Part shown: piece after piece, positions 47,362-56,699 of the stretch
How positions within the stretch are numbered: position 1 is the first letter of the stretch
Layout: each line of letters begins with the position of its first letter
Source of the DNA: Saprospiraceae bacterium
Lineage (GTDB): Bacteria > Bacteroidota > Bacteroidia > Chitinophagales > Saprospiraceae
Length of the DNA stretch: 64,000 nt
NCBI GenBank assembly: GCA_020437105.1
Contig: JAGQWR010000030.1
Span: 1 to 64,000, forward strand
Reading direction: 5' to 3'
The notes under the pieces: model-generated
What the model was told of the DNA's origin: nothing
Databases searched by the model: none
The model's input: only the letters and a program-made list of their open reading frames with translations
Translations under genes and position numbers: made by a program

Positions 47362-48030
47362 ATGTCTGTGTTTAAGAATATCAAATCGTTATTTGTTTTG
47401 GAAGATGAGAACCCATCTCCAAAAACGACATCGAAATCGGAATCGAATAAAGGCGCAACAACCCCGGATTCAGGCTCTCCGGTCGTACGGGAAAGCCCTG
47501 CCGGTGTTCGTGGCCAGGTGACCATCAAATTCATGGATGTGTTATTTGCCGCCATGGAAAAAAATAACCTGGACGGATTTGATTATCTGGAGTACAAACA
47601 GTCTCTTCAGTCACTGGCTAAAATGCCAATGGATGAAGCCACCCGATACCAGTCGGCTTATGCTATGGCACAAACAATGGGAGCTACTCCTCAGAAATTA
47701 ATTCAGTCTGCTTCGCATTACATCCAGGTGCTTCAGGCAGAAGAACAAAAGTTTCAGGTAGCCCTGGCCAACCAAAAACAACAGAACATCTCCGAAAAGG
47801 AAAAACTGGCCAACGATTTGGATCTGACGGTGAAGACGAAAGAAGAGGCGATCAAAAAATTGCAACAGGAAATAGAAACGACACGAAAACAGCAGCAAAG
47901 CCTCCGCAAGGAAGTGGAATCAGCAACCATAAAGGTCGAAAGTACCAAGAATGATTTTATTGCTTCTTTCAATAAATTGGTCAGTCAGATCAATCAGGAT
48001 ATGGAGGCGATGAAGAACTATCTTAAGTAA
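47362..48030 (+). CDS. Cytoplasmic coiled-coil protein, first gene of the SBP-OmpA locus
   Basis: 222 residues, no signal peptide or membrane helix. A Ser/Thr/Pro-rich N-terminus (about 15-55) is followed by a compact helical block (VTIKFMDVLFAAMEKNNLDG, DYLEYKQSLQSLAKMPMDEATRYQSAYAMA, KLIQSASHYIQVLQAE) and a long coiled coil (about 130-220) with heptads such as EIETTRKQQQSLRKEVESAT. I do not know a family name. The next gene encodes a membrane coiled-coil protein, so a pair acting at the inner membrane is plausible. Start ATG 47362; the divergent glycosyltransferase operon starts 260 bases away. Confidence 0.75.
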   Translation: MSVFKNIKSLFVLEDENPSPKTTSKSESNKGATTPDSGSPVVRESPAGVRGQVTIKFMDVLFAAMEKNNLDGFDYLEYKQSLQSLAKMPMDEATRYQSAYAMAQTMGATPQKLIQSASHYIQVLQAEEQKFQVALANQKQQNISEKEKLANDLDLTVKTKEEAIKKLQQEIETTRKQQQSLRKEVESATIKVESTKNDFIASFNKLVSQINQDMEAMKNYLK

Positions 48031-48058
48031 TTTTGAATTTTGAATTTTGAATTTTGAA
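48031..48058 (+). repeat. Perfect heptanucleotide repeat (TTTTGAA)x4
   Basis: Four exact copies of TTTTGAA, beginning immediately after the stop of the coiled-coil gene and ending 56 bases before the next ATG, followed by TTTTTAG. Slippage would change the spacing between two genes of the locus but not a reading frame. Confidence 0.9.
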
Positions 48059-48114
48059 TTTTTAGTGCTGGATTGCGGCTGCTTGAAACAATCAGGCTAC
48101 ATGTAAATTATACA

Positions 48115-49143
48115 ATGGTGGACACAAACGAATTTAAACCAAAATCATTTTGGAAACGCCCGGAGGGTGTAACCGGCGCGATCTTCCTGGGGGGGCTGAT
48201 TATTGGAGGCGGGTATTTACTCTATGCCATCCTGCCGATATTGGTGGGTTTGGCGGCTAATACGCTTTACCTGGCCTTGATGCTGGTTGCCTTTGCGGCA
48301 CTGGTATTTGTCGTGCTCGACCCCAAAGCCCGGAACCTGATCTCCTATATGTACAAGAGTGTCATGCGTTGGGTTACCAGCCTTTTCATCCAAATTGATC
48401 CGATCGGAATACTAAAGTCCTATGTAGAAGACCTGGAAGACAACCTGAAGAAGATGAACAAACAAATCAACCAGTTGCGTGGCCAAATGCACAAGCTGGG
48501 AGAGATTATCTTCAACAACAAAAAAGCGATCAAGGATAATCTGGAATTGGCCTCTGAAGCCAGAGAGCGGAATAAAGACAGTCAGATGATTCTCAAATCC
48601 CGGAAAGCAGGACGCTTGAAGGAATCGAATGTACGTCTGGAAGATCTGTATCACAAGATGGAAGTACTCTATCGGGTACTTAGCAAGATGTATGAGAATT
48701 CGGAGGTGATGAAGGAAGACATCAAAGATCAGGTCATGGTCAAAGAGCAGGAGCGCAAAGCCATCCACGCCAGTAATTCTGCCATGAAATCAGCGATGAA
48801 TATTATCGCCGGTAATACAGACGCACGCTATATGTTTGATATGGCCCTGGAAGCAATCGCCAATGATGTCTCAGAAAAAGTCGGCGAAATGGAGCAATTC
48901 ATGGAAATGTCTTCTAATTTCATGGAGTCTGTTGATTTACAAAACGGCATTTTTGAAGAGGAAGGCCTGCGGATGTTGGAAAAATGGGAAAAAGAAGGCG
49001 TCTCCCGAATTCTTGGAGAAGAAAAATCGACGCTTCTGTTAGAAGCACAGGACGAAGGCAATGTTTTGGATCTGAATGCGCCTGTGAAACGCGCTACACC
49101 CGAAGCAGAGCGGATTAATCAATATGACAGCTTCTTCGATTAA
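48115..49143 (+). CDS. Two-TM coiled-coil membrane protein, PspA-like in appearance
   Basis: 342 residues from the ATG at 48115; the upstream 14 codons of the frame begin at TTG and run through repeat-like sequence. Two membrane helices at about 18-70 (GAIFLGGLIIGGGYLLYAILPILV, LYLALMLVAFAALVFVVL) precede a long helical domain: SYVEDLEDNLKKMNKQINQLR, LGEIIFNNKKAIKDNL, then a Lys/Arg-rich stretch, MYENSEVMKEDIKDQV, ARYMFDMALEAIANDV and a terminal RMLEKWEKEG. The opening DxxxxLKxYxEDLEDxLxKM resembles PspA/IM30 in its start, but the membrane helices are extra. PspA kinship is a guess needing structure comparison. Confidence 0.7.
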   Translation: MVDTNEFKPKSFWKRPEGVTGAIFLGGLIIGGGYLLYAILPILVGLAANTLYLALMLVAFAALVFVVLDPKARNLISYMYKSVMRWVTSLFIQIDPIGILKSYVEDLEDNLKKMNKQINQLRGQMHKLGEIIFNNKKAIKDNLELASEARERNKDSQMILKSRKAGRLKESNVRLEDLYHKMEVLYRVLSKMYENSEVMKEDIKDQVMVKEQERKAIHASNSAMKSAMNIIAGNTDARYMFDMALEAIANDVSEKVGEMEQFMEMSSNFMESVDLQNGIFEEEGLRMLEKWEKEGVSRILGEEKSTLLLEAQDEGNVLDLNAPVKRATPEAERINQYDSFFD

Positions 49144-49210
49144 GCTTTTCTCCTGTTGATTTTGATCAAAACACTACACATCCAAAATAGCAATAAACAA
49201 CAACCAAGTC

Positions 49211-50767
49211 ATGGCTAAGAGACTCACAACTTTTTCCAAATTCGTTATTACCCTGGTCATTGTGGCCGGTGTGTTTTTTGGTGGCAAATACATTTTGCAA
49301 AACACAGAATTTGGACAAAACCTCCTGAATAAATCCGATAATCCGGAAAACCCCAAAAAGGATAACCCGAAACCATCCGGTAATACTGATGTAATCAGTG
49401 TCGGAGTTGTAACCTGGGGTGGTTATGCGGGCGGACAATACTTTAACGAGGGCTTTGATGCTAATACAAATTCTCGTTTCTATAAAGATTACGGATTTGA
49501 AGTCGAGTTTAAGGTACTTGACGATTTTGATGCTTCCCGGGCAGCCTGGAAACGCGATGAAGTGCAACTGCTCTGGTGTACCATTGATGCCTTCCCAACC
49601 GAAGTAAACGCCCTAAAGGATTTTGATCCGGTTGTAGTCTGGCAGGCCGACTGGTCGCGCGGTGGAGATGCCATCGTAGCCCGTCGGGGAATCAATAGCG
49701 TGGCCGATCTTCGCGGAAAGCGGATCGCCGTAGCCGAATTATCTCCTTCCCATTCCTTCCTGATCTGGTTGCTGGATGCCGGCGGACTAAGTGTTAATGA
49801 TGTGGAAATAGTACCACAGTCAAGTGCCATTGATGCCGCAGAAGTATTCAAATCGCAACGCGTTGACGCAGCTGTTGTTTGGAGTCCGGATGATGAGGCT
49901 TGTTTGCGGGCTGTTGCAGGTTCCAGTGTACTGGAAAGCACCCGCTCTGCTTCCAATATCATTGCCGATGTATTCATTGCCAAGCGTTCATTCGTGGAAG
50001 CAAACAAGGATAAAATGAGGCAAATGTATGAGGGTTGGATGCGTGGTTCAGCAGAGATCAACAGCTCTGATGCCAATAAACGTAAAGCGGCACAAATCCT
50101 TTCCGAGAACTTCCCTGGCTTTACAGTAGATGACACCTACCAGGCCATCAATAATGTACGGCTGACCACTCACGGAGATAACCAAAATTTCTTTGGCTTG
50201 GATCCGAACTTCCGGGGTGTAAATGGAAACAGCCTTTATACTCGGATGGCTAATGTGTATCGGGATTTGGGTTACATCGAAGGAAGTGTTCCAAATTGGC
50301 GACTCATTGCCATGCCGGAATTAGTGGAATCAACCAACCTCTCCGGTAGCCAGCATGAGGCAGAAGGTACTAAGGAATTTTCTGAACTTGACGACCAATC
50401 CGGCCGGGACGCAGAAGCAATTGCCTCCAAACAGGTGCGTATCAATTTCCGTACAGCCGAGTATATTTTGGATGAAAATGCCAAATATATTATCGACAAG
50501 GAATTTGTAGAGATTGCAAAAGCTTTCGCGAATGCCCGTATTCGGATCGAGGGAAATACAGACAGCCAGGGTTCTCGTTCAACAAATATTGCCCTGTCCA
50601 AAAAACGGGCAGAAGCGGTGCGGGATTATCTGGTTGAAGTACACAATATGCCACGCAACCGTTTTATCGTAATCGGCAACGGACCAGATAAACCCTTGGC
50701 CTCTAATGATACGGAAAGCGGACGGGCACAAAACCGGCGCACTGATTTTGAATTGGTTCGGGAATAA
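49211..50767 (+). CDS. ABC substrate-binding protein fused to OmpA peptidoglycan-binding domain
   Basis: 518 residues. A signal-anchor helix at about 10-28 (FVITLVIVAGVFFGGKYIL, no lipobox) is followed by a Lys/Asn/Pro linker, an NMT1/TauA-type periplasmic binding domain (about 60-370: GVVTWGGYAGGQYFN, LLWCTIDAFPTEV, VADLRGKRIAVAELSPSHSF, RVDAAVVWSPDDEACLRA) and a complete OmpA-like domain (409-518: IEGNTDSQGSRSTNIALSKK with Asp451, and the Arg509-Arg510 pair in NRRTDF, which hold diaminopimelate). It should sit in the inner membrane, reach the wall, and feed the downstream permease. Such a fusion is rarely described. Ligand unknown. Confidence 0.88.
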   Translation: MAKRLTTFSKFVITLVIVAGVFFGGKYILQNTEFGQNLLNKSDNPENPKKDNPKPSGNTDVISVGVVTWGGYAGGQYFNEGFDANTNSRFYKDYGFEVEFKVLDDFDASRAAWKRDEVQLLWCTIDAFPTEVNALKDFDPVVVWQADWSRGGDAIVARRGINSVADLRGKRIAVAELSPSHSFLIWLLDAGGLSVNDVEIVPQSSAIDAAEVFKSQRVDAAVVWSPDDEACLRAVAGSSVLESTRSASNIIADVFIAKRSFVEANKDKMRQMYEGWMRGSAEINSSDANKRKAAQILSENFPGFTVDDTYQAINNVRLTTHGDNQNFFGLDPNFRGVNGNSLYTRMANVYRDLGYIEGSVPNWRLIAMPELVESTNLSGSQHEAEGTKEFSELDDQSGRDAEAIASKQVRINFRTAEYILDENAKYIIDKEFVEIAKAFANARIRIEGNTDSQGSRSTNIALSKKRAEAVRDYLVEVHNMPRNRFIVIGNGPDKPLASNDTESGRAQNRRTDFELVRE

Positions 50768-50784
50768 TTTGAAACACACACATT

Positions 50785-52476
50785 ATGTCCTTATTCACGC
50801 TCCGTGGAAATCTAAGTAAGGTCCAAAGCCTGATTCTTGGTCTGGTTGGCCTGCTTATTTTCCTGGGACTTTGGTGGCTTATGGCCGAATGGTTTGCCAT
50901 CGATAAGTCAGAATTGTCGGAGAATCCCCGGTTGGAAGAAACGGAAACAGATTTCGTACTTTCTGCTCTGGAGGATTTAGACCCGCTTGATAATAAACTG
51001 CCGGAGGATGCACAGACTGGTACTTATACCGGTCTGCGCATTCATGCACCCGGCTATGATTCTACTTCCATTGCCCTCCGCCTGGCTGATGATGCCGGCG
51101 GCCTGTTTAGTATTCATCCCAAAACAGGGGAAGTACGACTGGCAGAAGGCCCGCTCAATTACGAAGAATCGACTGTTTATACTATTGTTGCTTCCGCGGA
51201 TGCGAGTGACGGACGAAAATTCTCATCCAATTTTACGATTCAGGTTCAGGATCGAAATGAATTCTGGATAGGGCCACTCGAAGATGCCGATTCACAGGTG
51301 AATGAGGTGTCCGTATTAGCAGGTGTGGAAGAATATACGGGCTTGCAGGCTTTCGCCGAAGATCGGGATGGCACGGATAAGGTTAGTTACCGATTGCTTA
51401 ATCATGCGAAAGGGTTGTTTGCTATCGACCGGGAATCAGGTCGGGTGGTAGTGCAGGATACCGCTAAGCTGAGGCAACAGGGCCTTGGGGCCGTACCGTT
51501 AACGATTGTAGCCAACAGTACAGATTTTTCGGCCGATACGGCCAATTTTTATGTGCAGTTGATCCAGTCAAATCAGTCTGTTACCCAAGTAGCGGGTCCG
51601 GATAAGGTTTATCCTATTTTGCCGACACCCGGCCAGGTGGTCAAGTCTTTTCCATCCCTGATTCAGGATGACCATTTATGGATGCACACCTTTAAATCAA
51701 TCTGGCTGAACATGCAGGGTTATTGGTGGGCCATTCTGATTTCGATTCCGATTGGATTTGTCATTGGGTTGTTTCCGATTTTTCGGGGCATGTTTAGCAA
51801 ACAGGTTGATGCTCTGCGCTATTTACCGCTGACTGCCCTGACCGGATTGTTTATTATCTGGTTTGGGATTGAGGACCAGATGAAGATTGCCTTTTTGGCC
51901 TTTGGTATTATTGTTTACCTGCTTCCGGTAGTCGTGCAGCGGGTGGATGAGGTGGTGGACGTTTATACCCAGACTGTTTTTACGCTGGGCGCGACCAAAT
52001 GGCAGACGATTCGATCTGTTTTTATTCCTTCGGTCATGTCTAAAGTGGTTGACGACATTCGGGTATTGACAGCCATTTCCTGGACCTATATAATTATTGC
52101 TGAATTGCTCAACCGCGAAGACGGTATTGGGGCACTCATTTATATTAAGGCCCGGCAGGGGCAAATTGCAAAAGTTTTTGCGATCCTGTTGGTCATTATA
52201 CTGGTAGGGTTTATTCAGGACCGGCTTTTTGTTTATATGGATCGCCGGTTATTTCCACATAAATACCTCAAGTCGAGACTGGATGGTATCCGGGAAACTG
52301 AATATGGACTTACGGCGCTTTTCCTGTTGGTTACCCTCACTATTTTGCAAGGTATTTTCCTTCCGGGAATGGGTGCAGCTATGATGAATATTGCCATTAT
52401 CGTGGCCCTGGCTGCCTTGATCATTATCGGTTATGGAGAAATAAAATTGTTCCAAAGCCGTAAACAAACGAATTAA
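50785..52476 (+). CDS. ABC transporter permease with cadherin-like repeats in a periplasmic loop
   Basis: 563 residues. TM1 at about 15-36 is followed by some 260 periplasmic residues, then a TauC/SsuC-type permease core (about 300-500) with the coupling EAA-like loop (TLGATKWQTIRSVFIPSVMS) and C-terminal helices. The periplasmic part holds two cadherin-like units: residues 78-160 (LFSIHPKTGEVRL, LNYEES, YTIVASADAS, QVQDRNE) and 175-262 (LFAIDRESGRVVV, LTIVANSTD), each with the F-x-I-x-x-x-T/S-G core and Asp/Asn/Glu for calcium. I know no standard permease with this insert. It begins 17 bases after the SBP gene and 3 bases before the ATPase gene. Confidence 0.88.
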   Translation: MSLFTLRGNLSKVQSLILGLVGLLIFLGLWWLMAEWFAIDKSELSENPRLEETETDFVLSALEDLDPLDNKLPEDAQTGTYTGLRIHAPGYDSTSIALRLADDAGGLFSIHPKTGEVRLAEGPLNYEESTVYTIVASADASDGRKFSSNFTIQVQDRNEFWIGPLEDADSQVNEVSVLAGVEEYTGLQAFAEDRDGTDKVSYRLLNHAKGLFAIDRESGRVVVQDTAKLRQQGLGAVPLTIVANSTDFSADTANFYVQLIQSNQSVTQVAGPDKVYPILPTPGQVVKSFPSLIQDDHLWMHTFKSIWLNMQGYWWAILISIPIGFVIGLFPIFRGMFSKQVDALRYLPLTALTGLFIIWFGIEDQMKIAFLAFGIIVYLLPVVVQRVDEVVDVYTQTVFTLGATKWQTIRSVFIPSVMSKVVDDIRVLTAISWTYIIIAELLNREDGIGALIYIKARQGQIAKVFAILLVIILVGFIQDRLFVYMDRRLFPHKYLKSRLDGIRETEYGLTALFLLVTLTILQGIFLPGMGAAMMNIAIIVALAALIIIGYGEIKLFQSRKQTN

Positions 52477-52479
52477 TCC

Positions 52480-53283
52480 ATGCCGCAATTTATAGATACT
52501 CCGGATCCTAATATTATAGAACTGCGTGGCATTAACCAGTCTTACGATGGAGGCGAAAACTTCATCATTCAGGGCTTGGATTTCCTGGTAGAGGATAAAC
52601 CGGCACAAGGTCAGTTTGTGGTCATTCTGGGCATGTCTGGTTGTGGTAAATCTACCATTTTGCGCTACATCGCCGGTTTGCAGGAGCCCACTGCCGGAAA
52701 AGTACTGATACATGATAAACCGGTCAGTCCCGATAATCGGGTAGGGATGGTGTTTCAACAATATTCTTCTCTGCCCTGGATGACGGTTTTGGAAAATGTG
52801 TCCCTGGCACTGAAGTATAAAGGCATCTCTGCCGCCGAACGTCGTAAGCGTGCCATGGAATTAATTGAAATGGTTGGACTCGCCGGCCATGAACATAAAT
52901 TTGCCCAATACCCTACGCTTTCGGGTGGTCAGCTACAACGTGTGGCCATTGCGCGTAGCCTCATCGCCAATCCCGAAATCATTTTGATGGACGAGCCCTT
53001 TGGCGCCCTGGATGTTAATACAAGGCTACAAATGCAAGACCTCCTGGCAGATCTCTGGTTGAAGTTTCATCCGACCATCATTTTTGTAACCCACGACATC
53101 TCGGAAGCTGTTTACCTCGGAGATGATATTTATATAATGAAATCTGCTCCTTCCCGTTTTGTAGAGCACATTAAAGTAGATCTGCCTTTCGAACGAAATC
53201 GGGATACGAAACGCGACCCGCACTTTGTGGAGCTGGTACGGGAAGTTGAAGACCGTATGGTACGGGTGGCCGAATTGGGGTAA
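52480..53283 (+). CDS. ABC transporter ATP-binding protein (TauB/SsuB/NrtD type)
   Basis: 267 residues. Walker A GMSGCGKST (51-59), Q-loop FQQYSSLPWM, signature LSGGQLQRVAIARSL, Walker B IILMDEPFGALD, H-loop VTHDISEAV. The C-terminal segment (DLPFERNRDTKRDPHFVEL) is the usual end of the taurine/nitrate/sulfonate group. It energises the cadherin-containing permease just upstream (3-base gap). All catalytic residues are present, so ATP hydrolysis is expected. Confidence 0.94.
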   Translation: MPQFIDTPDPNIIELRGINQSYDGGENFIIQGLDFLVEDKPAQGQFVVILGMSGCGKSTILRYIAGLQEPTAGKVLIHDKPVSPDNRVGMVFQQYSSLPWMTVLENVSLALKYKGISAAERRKRAMELIEMVGLAGHEHKFAQYPTLSGGQLQRVAIARSLIANPEIILMDEPFGALDVNTRLQMQDLLADLWLKFHPTIIFVTHDISEAVYLGDDIYIMKSAPSRFVEHIKVDLPFERNRDTKRDPHFVELVREVEDRMVRVAELG

Positions 53284-53355
53284 TAAAATCATTTACGGCA
53301 TAATCGGCATTTTTCACTACTTTGGATGTATTCCTTAAATGAAAAACCACCTATT

Positions 53356-53532
53356 ATGAGTAAATTGTTACCACAGGCACCAAAAAACACTACTGTTATT
53401 ATTAGTGTTGCCCTCGTTCTTTTAGGATTGTTTGGTGCGGTATTAAGTCCCACAATTGCCGATAATGGCGACTGGTTTATGTTGGCCGGATTCGTTTTTC
53501 TTTTACTGGGCGTTTATGTAAAAGGGCTTTAA
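53356..53532 (+). CDS. Small two-TM membrane protein
   Basis: 58 residues from the ATG at 53356; an earlier in-frame ATG at 53326 would add ten hydrophilic residues (MYSLNEKPPI). Two hydrophobic helices (VIISVALVLLGLFGAVLS and WFMLAGFVFLLLGVYVKGL) joined by a short NGD loop. No recognised family. It is the last gene before the terminator at 53561 and follows the ATPase by 72 bases, so it may be part of the transport unit or just a neighbour. Confidence 0.6.
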   Translation: MSKLLPQAPKNTTVIISVALVLLGLFGAVLSPTIADNGDWFMLAGFVFLLLGVYVKGL

Positions 53533-53560
53533 GAAGCAGTTTGATTTAACATAGTTTTGA

Positions 53561-53594
53561 GCGTGTTTGGGTTTAAGAATCCAAACACGCTTTT
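53561..53594 (+). terminator. Terminator closing the SBP-OmpA/permease unit
   Basis: Perfect stem GCGTGTTTGG / CCAAACACGC with a 10-base loop and T-run, between the small membrane protein gene and the 964-residue gene. It implies that the latter has its own promoter in the following 200 bases. Confidence 0.9.
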
Positions 53595-53804: not shown

Positions 53805-56699
53805 ATGTTAGCATCCACACCACAGTTCTTTTTGGAATTCAGCTTCCTGCTGCTGGTGTTTTATTTGTGTATTCAAAATCTAAACCTGCTGCCAACAGAG
53901 CGAGCCAGTTTGCTTGCCGGCATTCCGCTGGTGGCTTTTTTACTCCCCGGCTTTCGATTCGCTTTTTCAATGGATTCTCCGGCTATGATTGGCTGGGCTG
54001 CCGGTTCCTTTTCCTGGTGGGAAGCAGACTGGGGAGTCTTTGCGCGAAATGCGAGTCTGGCCGATTTGATATTAATCGCTTATTGGCTCGGATTTGCCTG
54101 GTTTCTGGCCCGTTTTCTGGATCAGCTTGCCCGGCTTGGGCTTTCCAATAATGGCTTTTCCGTAAATCGCTTTTTTAATCGATCGTTTGATCCGGCGCAG
54201 GCACATCAACGGGCTATCGCTGCTTTACTTGTTCTGGGGCGCCCGGAAGATTCCCGGATGTTGGAGCAGGCACAAATTCAGTTGCCCGGGCGGTTGCACC
54301 GGGGTCATTTTTTTGAAGTAGCATTGGTGGAATTGATGGTACTGATCAATTGGTGGAATCCATTGATTCATCTCTATAGGAAAAAGTACCTTGGGCAAAT
54401 CCGGCTGGAGTTGGACCGGCAGTTGATGCCGTCACGGATTGTTTATTCCAAGGAGCAGGATCAAATTCATTTGGCGCTTAGGCGAATTATAGCCTCTTGC
54501 GCGGGTTTTCTCTTATTCATTAACCTGCCCCTTCCCGGCGCAGAAACTTATGTGCAGTTTTTCCGGAACATAGAAATAAAGAGTCAAACGGCATTCCTGG
54601 ATGATCCGACCCTAATGGAACCCACTGCTACCCTTGAGTGGGGCGGACATGAAATTCCATTGGCAGCCGTACATTCAGACGCCACGCTGGCTTATGAGTT
54701 ATATTATCTCCAGCCTTTCGAGTTTTATATGCTGCGCCAGTATCACATGCGCCTGCGGGTAGGTGCAGCACATCCTGAAATTTTATCCCTGGTCGGGCGT
54801 ATTGGCGTGCCCCATTCTAATGAGTTATCGCTTATCGAATCGAATGCTGACTTTGAAGAACGTTTGCCGCGCCTGGTATCTATGGGTGAGCAGACCCTCT
54901 TTCTTCGTTTGGAAGGAAAAGACGGGCGCACCTGGGTAGCTGTTCTTGCGATTTCTGAAACGGCTCAGGTATATAACGAAGAAAACGGCATGAATGCGAT
55001 CGCCCGGGATGTAGCGGGTATTGAGCAGATTAAAAAAGCTAAACCGACGCCTGTTACTCCTTATCGTTTTGTCTGGGGTAACCTGGAAATTCCCCTGGAA
55101 AAATATGCCAATCCGGATGTATATCGTGGATTTTTAGAGCTTCCGCTGGATAGTTTCCTGAATTCCGTGTCGAGCCAGATGCGTTTCTTTGCCCGTGACT
55201 CCCTTCTGGAAATGGAGCATCTGACAATCCGTGCGTATGGGGATCCCAGTTGGCGGTCTGTGATCTGGTATCCGGAAATCGTTGATGATGCGGCGACCCT
55301 GGATGAATGGGTGAGTCGGGATGACCTGGCTGCAAAGTTGACTCCCGGGTCAGAAATTACCTTGTACGGACGAGCGGGCGATATGTATGTGAATACGGTA
55401 GCGATCCGAATACATGATCCCAATGAGCTTTACCAACCGCTTTTCCGGGCGCCGGAGATCAATCAGGACCCCGCGGAGTTTGATTACCAGTTGATTAACA
55501 GACCTGGTTATGAATCCATTGTTCGCATGGATACCCTGCAGGAAAGTAGCCACCGGATTGTAAATATGTATCGCAATAAGCCGGATTATCGCATTGTGCA
55601 TGTACCTGGCTTCCGAACCAACGAACGCCTTGTTAATGCCTGGGAATCTGAAACGGAGTTTATCGAATCACAGCCCTATTTGTCGGTAGCCGATTTTAAT
55701 ATTTTTTCGGAATTGCCTGAATATCATGACTTTCAGGATTCTTTGGTACAGCTTAACTGGGGCGAGATGTGGGCGATGCCAAACAGTGAGGTTTACGAAC
55801 CCAACGAATATGAATTAAACCGCCGGGAATCGCTTCGTTTATGGATTGGAAGTCGATCTTTTACCATTGAAAAGGCCACCGTGGATTTTGCCAGAGATGG
55901 TGAAGTGCGGGGACTCTACTTTTTGGATTCGACCGATCTTCAAACCCCACATGTGCTTCCGAAAGCTGAACCTGAAACCAGTGTATTCTTTAAAAATCTG
56001 GTTATTCGCGACAGCGCCGGAACAGCTTATGTGCTGCCTGTTATTTTTGGATTTCATATTGGTAAAGAAACAAATCCGGGCGATTGGAATATTTTAATAG
56101 ATGCTGACACGGAAGGGCGATCGGAGCGTACATTCGAACCCGGGTCTTATCTCTTTCAGCATTATCGACTTTCGGAATTAGTAGAGGAATTGCTTGGCGT
56201 ACGTGCAAACCGCCTTACTTTTGAGAACCAAAAACAGGATCCCTGGGTTATGGTTCGTTTTATTGGCGAACACTATCGAGAATCCCAGGCTACTAAAATT
56301 ATCTTGCGTTCGCTGATGAAGAAATATGGCTTTGTCGTCAAATCAGAACGCCTTAATGGTCCGGTGGCGCGTGTTCAGGTAAATTTTGAAGATAAATTAC
56401 TGGAGTCCAGATCTGATACTTTGACGATTGCAGAAGGAGATAAAATGCAGGTTTTTGACCCGGAAGGTTTTCATCTGCTCCGTGGAATCACGTTGGTAGA
56501 GCTTACACACCTTCTGGAAGATCGTTTCGGCCAAATTTTTGAAATGTATCCAACGCCTTATAATAATATCCCTTTTAACTTTTCTTTGGTGCTGGATAAC
56601 CTGCCGTCTGTAAAAAAACAATTACTCGACCAATATGGCCTCCAGGTTTTTGAAGGCGATTGGAGTTATTATGCCGTAAAGGTGCAGTTTGGAAATTAA
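53805..56699 (+). CDS. Large membrane protein with degenerate M56 (BlaR1-like) domain and repeats
   Basis: 964 residues. Four membrane helices (about 9-25, 35-52, 88-105, 225-240) enclose a BlaR1/M56-like cytosolic loop: after RLHRGHFFEVALVELMVL comes NWWNPLIHLYRKKY and LELDRQ, which align with the family's WFNP...HExxAD tail, but the HExxH zinc motif is lacking, so peptidase activity is doubtful. Periplasmic part: three related modules starting WGGHEIPL (279), WGNLEIPL (423) and NWGEMWAMP (650), then a C-terminal module (780-964) with LVELTHLLEDRFGQIFEMY, similar to DUF3738-like ends. No blaI-type repressor gene adjoins. Role unknown; signalling across the membrane is a guess. Confidence 0.7.
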   Translation: MLASTPQFFLEFSFLLLVFYLCIQNLNLLPTERASLLAGIPLVAFLLPGFRFAFSMDSPAMIGWAAGSFSWWEADWGVFARNASLADLILIAYWLGFAWFLARFLDQLARLGLSNNGFSVNRFFNRSFDPAQAHQRAIAALLVLGRPEDSRMLEQAQIQLPGRLHRGHFFEVALVELMVLINWWNPLIHLYRKKYLGQIRLELDRQLMPSRIVYSKEQDQIHLALRRIIASCAGFLLFINLPLPGAETYVQFFRNIEIKSQTAFLDDPTLMEPTATLEWGGHEIPLAAVHSDATLAYELYYLQPFEFYMLRQYHMRLRVGAAHPEILSLVGRIGVPHSNELSLIESNADFEERLPRLVSMGEQTLFLRLEGKDGRTWVAVLAISETAQVYNEENGMNAIARDVAGIEQIKKAKPTPVTPYRFVWGNLEIPLEKYANPDVYRGFLELPLDSFLNSVSSQMRFFARDSLLEMEHLTIRAYGDPSWRSVIWYPEIVDDAATLDEWVSRDDLAAKLTPGSEITLYGRAGDMYVNTVAIRIHDPNELYQPLFRAPEINQDPAEFDYQLINRPGYESIVRMDTLQESSHRIVNMYRNKPDYRIVHVPGFRTNERLVNAWESETEFIESQPYLSVADFNIFSELPEYHDFQDSLVQLNWGEMWAMPNSEVYEPNEYELNRRESLRLWIGSRSFTIEKATVDFARDGEVRGLYFLDSTDLQTPHVLPKAEPETSVFFKNLVIRDSAGTAYVLPVIFGFHIGKETNPGDWNILIDADTEGRSERTFEPGSYLFQHYRLSELVEELLGVRANRLTFENQKQDPWVMVRFIGEHYRESQATKIILRSLMKKYGFVVKSERLNGPVARVQVNFEDKLLESRSDTLTIAEGDKMQVFDPEGFHLLRGITLVELTHLLEDRFGQIFEMYPTPYNNIPFNFSLVLDNLPSVKKQLLDQYGLQVFEGDWSYYAVKVQFGN

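Follow-up and report, generated by a model that had tools for sequence, protein, structure and literature searches.

In the genome of a Saprospiraceae bacterium, five adjacent genes are predicted to form a conserved unit (47362-53283) in which a divergent PspA-like protein and its coiled-coil companion precede a solute-binding protein fused to an OmpA domain, an ABC permease, and an ABC ATPase. On balance, we favour the reading that a Psp-type (PspA/ESCRT-III-like) membrane-maintenance pair is coupled here to a type I ABC importer tethered to the wall, with the importer fixed at wall-membrane contacts and the pair on the same membrane patch. The gene combination has already been described in one earlier survey; the set found here is a Bacteroidota variant with a cadherin-bearing permease, the coiled-coil gene in first position, and no AAA+ gene. 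The DNA studied, hereafter the window, is the 64,000-nt stretch covering positions 1 to 64,000 of contig JAGQWR010000030.1 (assembly GCA_020437105.1), forward strand, and the features of the cluster are as follows.

Gene 1: 47362-48030, + strand, 222-aa soluble coiled-coil protein.
Gene 2: open reading frame 48073-49143, favoured start 48115, + strand, PspA/IM30-like protein with an N-terminal transmembrane pair and a helical hairpin.
Gene 3: 49211-50767, + strand, solute-binding protein of NMT1/TauA/SsuA type, predicted to be signal-anchored, with a C-terminal OmpA fusion.
Gene 4: 50785-52476, + strand, ABC permease of TauC/SsuC type with two cadherin repeats and extra C-terminal transmembrane helices.
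Gene 5: 52480-53283, + strand, ABC ATPase.
Gene 6: 53326-53532, + strand, 68-aa open reading frame with two transmembrane helices, non-conserved.
Intrinsic terminator: 53559-53592, + strand, 15 pairs, closing the cluster.

All six open reading frames are intact, lie on the + strand at the positions given by the initial annotation, and are separated, from gene 1 to gene 6, by 84 (or 42), 67, 17, 3, and 42 bases; for gene 2, homology and an in-frame ATG favour the start at 48115. The terminator, first placed at 53561-53594, is present at 53559-53592 and is the strongest terminator-like site within the 64-kb window. A short tandem repeat (48030-48065), with TTTTGAAT present in about four copies, lies between the first two genes. 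A Pfam scan of the six proteins, judged by curated cut-offs, identified NMT1 and OmpA in gene 3, BPD_transp_1 and two Cadherin repeats in gene 4, and ABC_tran in gene 5; genes 1, 2, and 6 had no match that passed. The six genes had been taken as one set, but only five belong together: no fetched locus contains a convincing homologue of gene 6, and in the congeneric locus, where it is absent, gene 5 directly adjoins the next gene. On these two grounds gene 6 was rejected as a part of the system, and it probably lies outside it. Positions 53805-56699 encode a protein of 964 aa whose N-terminal helices are hydrophobic and which matches no Pfam family; its homologues are found 3' of gene 5 on the same strand in two other loci (L069 and L073).

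Scanning 84,980 species genomes yielded 80 loci, their titles all from Bacteroidota (Saprospiraceae, Chitinophagales, Cytophagales, and Bacteroidales), and the order of genes 1, 2, and 3 recurs across the phylum, deep branches included. Where enough sequence was available, gene 1 lies 5' of gene 3 in 55 of 63 Bacteroidota loci and gene 2 directly 5' of it in 64 of 67, and genes 1 and 2 occur together in 34 of the 38 genomes having either. The permease directly follows gene 3 in 36 of 62 loci; of the loci checked, about two in five have the permease and ATPase elsewhere, where they remain paired. Of the 61 genomes surveyed around the window, 24 have gene 3 as well as the permease of gene 4 and 35 lack both, with one exception each way (Fisher 1e-14; 5e-8 inside the family), and the association holds even when the two are unlinked. 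The contig of the gene 3-only exception ends at that point, and the permease-only exception is a fragmented assembly. One genome (G002) shares its upstream neighbours with the window and a downstream beta-barrel-type gene with other family members; it has kept genes 1-2, has lost gene 3 from the locus, and carries no permease anywhere. Together with the co-occurrence, this pattern points to a transporter set that is a single unit and is lost whole, and to a function of genes 1-2 without it. Genes 1-2 lack the binding protein in 12 of the 61 genomes and, because gene 2 is nearly always present, its co-occurrence with gene 3 is non-significant within the family (p 0.14). The solitary pairs, and the frequent location of the permease-ATPase pair elsewhere, weigh against a physical coupling of genes 1-2 to the importer. 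The association put forward in the initial annotation is real and conserved; the cadherin form of the permease and gene 6 are not constant.

Gene 2 is predicted to be a divergent PspA-like protein, which scores below the family cut-off and is not filed here as a PspA family member. The PspA_IM30 profile (PF04012, curated cut-off 33.9 bits) was searched against 31 genomes, namely the window genome and 30 relatives, and matched both gene 2 paralogues over profile positions of about 22-204, always below the cut-off. Gene 2 homologues were the top match in most of the searched relatives from the window's family, the best reaching 26.6 bits (E 9e-6 per genome). Taken singly, 7 of 40 homologues match the profile (best E 8e-7 per protein), and the window gene 2 itself does not. 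No classical PspA scored above the PF04012 cut-off in the 31 genomes, window genome included, and gene 2 is probably the PspA equivalent in these bacteria. The model of gene 2 (pLDDT 70) aligns with Vipp1 (7o3w; Z 9.8, 2.9 A, 156 residues) and with E. coli PspA (4whe; Z 9.3, 2.4 A, 122 residues); axonemal helices are also among its best matches and BAR domains score equally high, and since such helical bundles do so, the fold match (Z 9-10) alone does not settle PspA kinship. The registers agree: D95 of the conserved DPxxxL motif, counted from the ATG, falls on position 24 of PspA/Vipp1 in structural and profile alignments alike, model residue 95 lying on Vipp1 24 and the motif on Asp24 of E. 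coli PspA. These profile matches and the register bear out the PspA-like character first claimed for a helical protein of the cluster.

It could still be argued that gene 2 is unrelated to PspA, that any hairpin behind two transmembrane helices would look alike, and that the pair is some other coiled-coil scaffold. An hhalign comparison with a 31-sequence PspA alignment placed the DP motif in the right register and was not significant, and the PDB, searched by sequence with gene 2 and with its alignment, yielded no relative; the first of these results, the sub-cut-off Pfam scores, and the unrelated BAR and axonemal helices among the top structural matches all fit such a view. Yet PF04012 is matched over the full domain in a constant register by many homologues and both paralogues, the DP-motif registers agree, the paralogue adjoins a YdjI-type SPFH gene, and classical PspA is missing from these genomes, which together make an unrelated scaffold improbable. 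In the PspA-like protein that we favour, two transmembrane helices occupy the place of the N-terminal amphipathic membrane helix of PspA/IM30, and the helical hairpin would be cytoplasmic.

Gene 1 is the coiled-coil companion of gene 2. It is gene 1, not gene 2, that has a short amphipathic-looking N-terminus, a conserved segment (MSVFKNIKSLFV) with the pattern FKxLKSLF. Its AlphaFold model (pLDDT 83) shows a small three-helix head and a long helical hairpin. A fold search returned only generic long helices and helices of alpha-pore toxins, below the trusted level, and a fold assignment was dropped on that account.

The window genome carries a second pair of genes 1-2 (L166, G000:C81:50797-51735), which lies 3' of SbcCD-like genes and is followed by a Band_7_1 SPFH-SHOCT gene (270 bits), a zinc-ribbon gene, and an asparaginase-fold gene. 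In the gene 2 tree, which has one very long branch, the second-copy group has moderate support (92/71). In B. subtilis, YdjI, a product of the pspA-ydjGHI operon, recruits PspA to the membrane (PMC8581546, PMC9239133), and with its PspA-like gene next to SPFH (YdjI-type Band_7_1) and zinc-ribbon partners, the second locus appears to resemble a Psp-like operon of that type. The window operon is unlike the B. subtilis operon in having neither an SPFH nor a zinc-ribbon gene, its partner being the ABC/SBP-OmpA set, and in that its gene 2 bears a transmembrane anchor of its own.

The binding protein encoded by gene 3 matches NMT1 with 37.1 bits (cut-off 20.5), and its residues 413-509 match OmpA (PF00691) with 69.6 bits (cut-off 27.2). 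A single hydrophobic helix (residues 11-29) forms its N-terminus, and no lipobox-like cysteine is present, any cysteine within the first 40 residues being found in just 5 of 78 homologues; on these features the protein would remain uncleaved and anchored in the inner membrane. The OmpA fusion is universal, with D451 and R466 invariant in 78 of 78 homologues, which agrees with the membrane-anchored, wall-binding protein first proposed. We take these two residues to be the counterparts of Asp271 and Arg286, presumably the diaminopimelate-binding residues of A. baumannii OmpA, which have the same spacing of +15. Of the site residues named in the initial annotation, Asp451 therefore stands, while Arg509/510, although conserved, is not the matching arginine, which is Arg466. 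In the binding domain, invariant residues cluster at, for example, W69-Y72, W122, D147-D153, S180-H181, and W224-D228. When this domain alone was searched phylum-wide in 395 evenly drawn genomes, the matches other than the window were all distant, at 50-55 bits or less.

Genes 3-5 are assigned, from their motifs and families, as an ATPase-competent type I ABC importer of the taurine/sulfonate/NMT1 class. The nearest NCBIfam matches are TauC/SaoP for the permease and TauB/SaoA for the ATPase. As initially described, gene 5 is canonical, with Walker A, Q-loop, LSGGQ, Walker B, and H-loop all intact; 41 ATPase homologues show no variation in LSGGQ, in the Gly/Lys/Ser/Thr of Walker A, in the Asp-Glu of Walker B, or in the His of the H-loop, and 45 permeases share a conserved EAA loop. 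These conserved motifs speak for an importer that is energised, against a degenerate ABC pair, and with the class-specific binding protein they are the features of type I importers of the TauT/NitT class. The families of all three genes are those of TauABC/SsuABC/NitT-type importers, from which the set differs in a binding protein predicted to be membrane-anchored and wall-bound, where theirs is free or lipid-anchored, and in the insert of the gene 4 permease. This insert consists of two stretches of cadherin repeat (PF00028, 40.6 bits, above cut-off) in the periplasmic loop that joins TM1 to the permease core. Cadherin-bearing permeases were found in two genera only, that of the window (window, L069) and one other (G028, L205), while most Saprospiraceae permeases have a short linker instead (total about 370-380 aa), those of deep branches have no insert (254-266 aa), and a few of 430-446 aa bear other inserts. 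The cadherin repeats thus appear to be a rare, late insertion and were rejected as a defining feature, contrary to the earlier view of the cadherin permease as a defining part. Homologues without the extra domains had been expected to speak against the original proposal: most permeases do lack cadherins, whereas the OmpA domain is never lost (78 of 78).

The initial annotation knew of no described system with the full set, which proved not to be so. In section 18 of their survey, Ravi et al. 2024 (PMC11237479) describe operons of PspA/Snf7-TM, ABC ATPase, permease, and PBPB-OmpA (e.g., OGG56892.1) "along with the AAA+ ATPase", with PspA not always associated with one, report that a third, coiled-coil gene occurs in PspA/Snf7 neighbourhoods of Bacteroidetes, and tentatively link membrane remodelling to solute transport. 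Taking gene 2 as PspA-like, the window has the same combination of a PspA-superfamily transmembrane gene, ABC ATPase, permease, and PBPB-OmpA in one predicted operon and is, judged by gene content, a Bacteroidota variant of this operon kind. It differs in the cadherin repeats of its permease, in its coiled-coil gene 1, which stands first, and in having no AAA+ gene in the cluster. AAA+ genes lie near system genes in some loci (L117, L121, and L171), in the first of them directly 3' of the cluster, and a two-AAA+ protein, found in 42 of 61 genomes, is encoded elsewhere in the window genome (G000:C19:10052-12691); it is a possible remote partner of the system.

Two other gene sets carry a similar cassette. 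On two Vibrio plasmids (L149 and L150), the order is ABC ATPase, SBP-OmpA, vWA, SBP-OmpA, a helical protein with two transmembrane helices, TelA, a urea-type SBP, and permease. Here too an SBP-OmpA with an NMT1-type binding domain and an ABC pair stand beside helical membrane-stress proteins, yet identity is 24-26%, and TelA and vWA replace genes 1-2. Compared as profiles, genes 1 and 2 showed no similarity to the Vibrio TelA or to its two-transmembrane neighbour. In a relative (L183, G019:C36), a different set of SBP-OmpA, permease, and ATPase adjoins two TerD genes and a PRTase_3 (phosphoribosyltransferase) gene, which suggests a Ter-linked version of the cassette. The presence of this cassette type next to stress modules of three different kinds speaks against a plain nutrient importer, that is, against genes 3-5 importing a small solute with the OmpA domain merely keeping the binding protein near the permease and genes 1-2 as unrelated neighbours. 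Canonical ABC motifs with a conserved EAA loop, the invariant residues clustered in the binding domain, and the permease-ATPase genes located elsewhere in about two in five loci would suit such an importer; however, the near-constant position of genes 1-2 directly 5' of gene 3, deep branches included, the same pairing as described independently by Ravi et al. 2024 (PMC11237479), and the other cassettes next to TelA-vWA or TerD stress genes make it unlikely.

The same stress modules, of three kinds, would agree with a sensor in place of an importer, in which the wall-bound binding protein and the ABC pair gauge the wall-membrane state or an envelope breakdown product and the state of the ATPase gates the PspA-like assembly. 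Its N-terminal anchor and OmpA domain would let gene 3 span from membrane to wall, and gene 2, itself a membrane protein, could contact the permease. Real transport is nevertheless suggested by the full conservation of the pocket and of the catalytic and coupling motifs, and in many genomes the permease-ATPase pair is encoded far from genes 1-3; we regard a pure sensor as rather doubtful.

In the favoured coupling of membrane-maintenance pair and importer, the OmpA domain of gene 3 would grip diaminopimelate in the peptidoglycan and hold the protein over its inner-membrane permease, so that the importer would stay at set points of contact between wall and membrane, much as the flagellar stator is fixed by MotB. 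The products of genes 1 and 2 would come together on the cytoplasmic side of this membrane patch, which they would stabilise or remodel in response to envelope stress, and they would work without the transporter too, while the importer may supply a small polar solute at the contact sites or report its presence. The initial annotation had proposed that import may be restricted to places where wall and membrane are aligned, or that the machine may signal by way of the coiled-coil proteins. It could further be speculated, with some reserve, that the wall-bound importer directly controls the membrane-anchored PspA-like polymer, relaying solute occupancy or membrane-wall spacing from the binding protein through the permease, as a PspA equivalent where the classical protein is lacking.

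For these bacteria, a PspA-like protein with its own membrane anchor seems to replace classical PspA. The two copies of genes 1-2, one set with SPFH and zinc-ribbon partners and the other with a wall-tethered transporter, offer a natural comparison of how one ESCRT-III-like protein is wired to different envelope partners. Cultured organisms such as Lewinella cohaerens and Flavilitoribacter nigricans carry genes 1-3, and the published, tentative remark on a link between membrane remodelling and transport thereby becomes testable.
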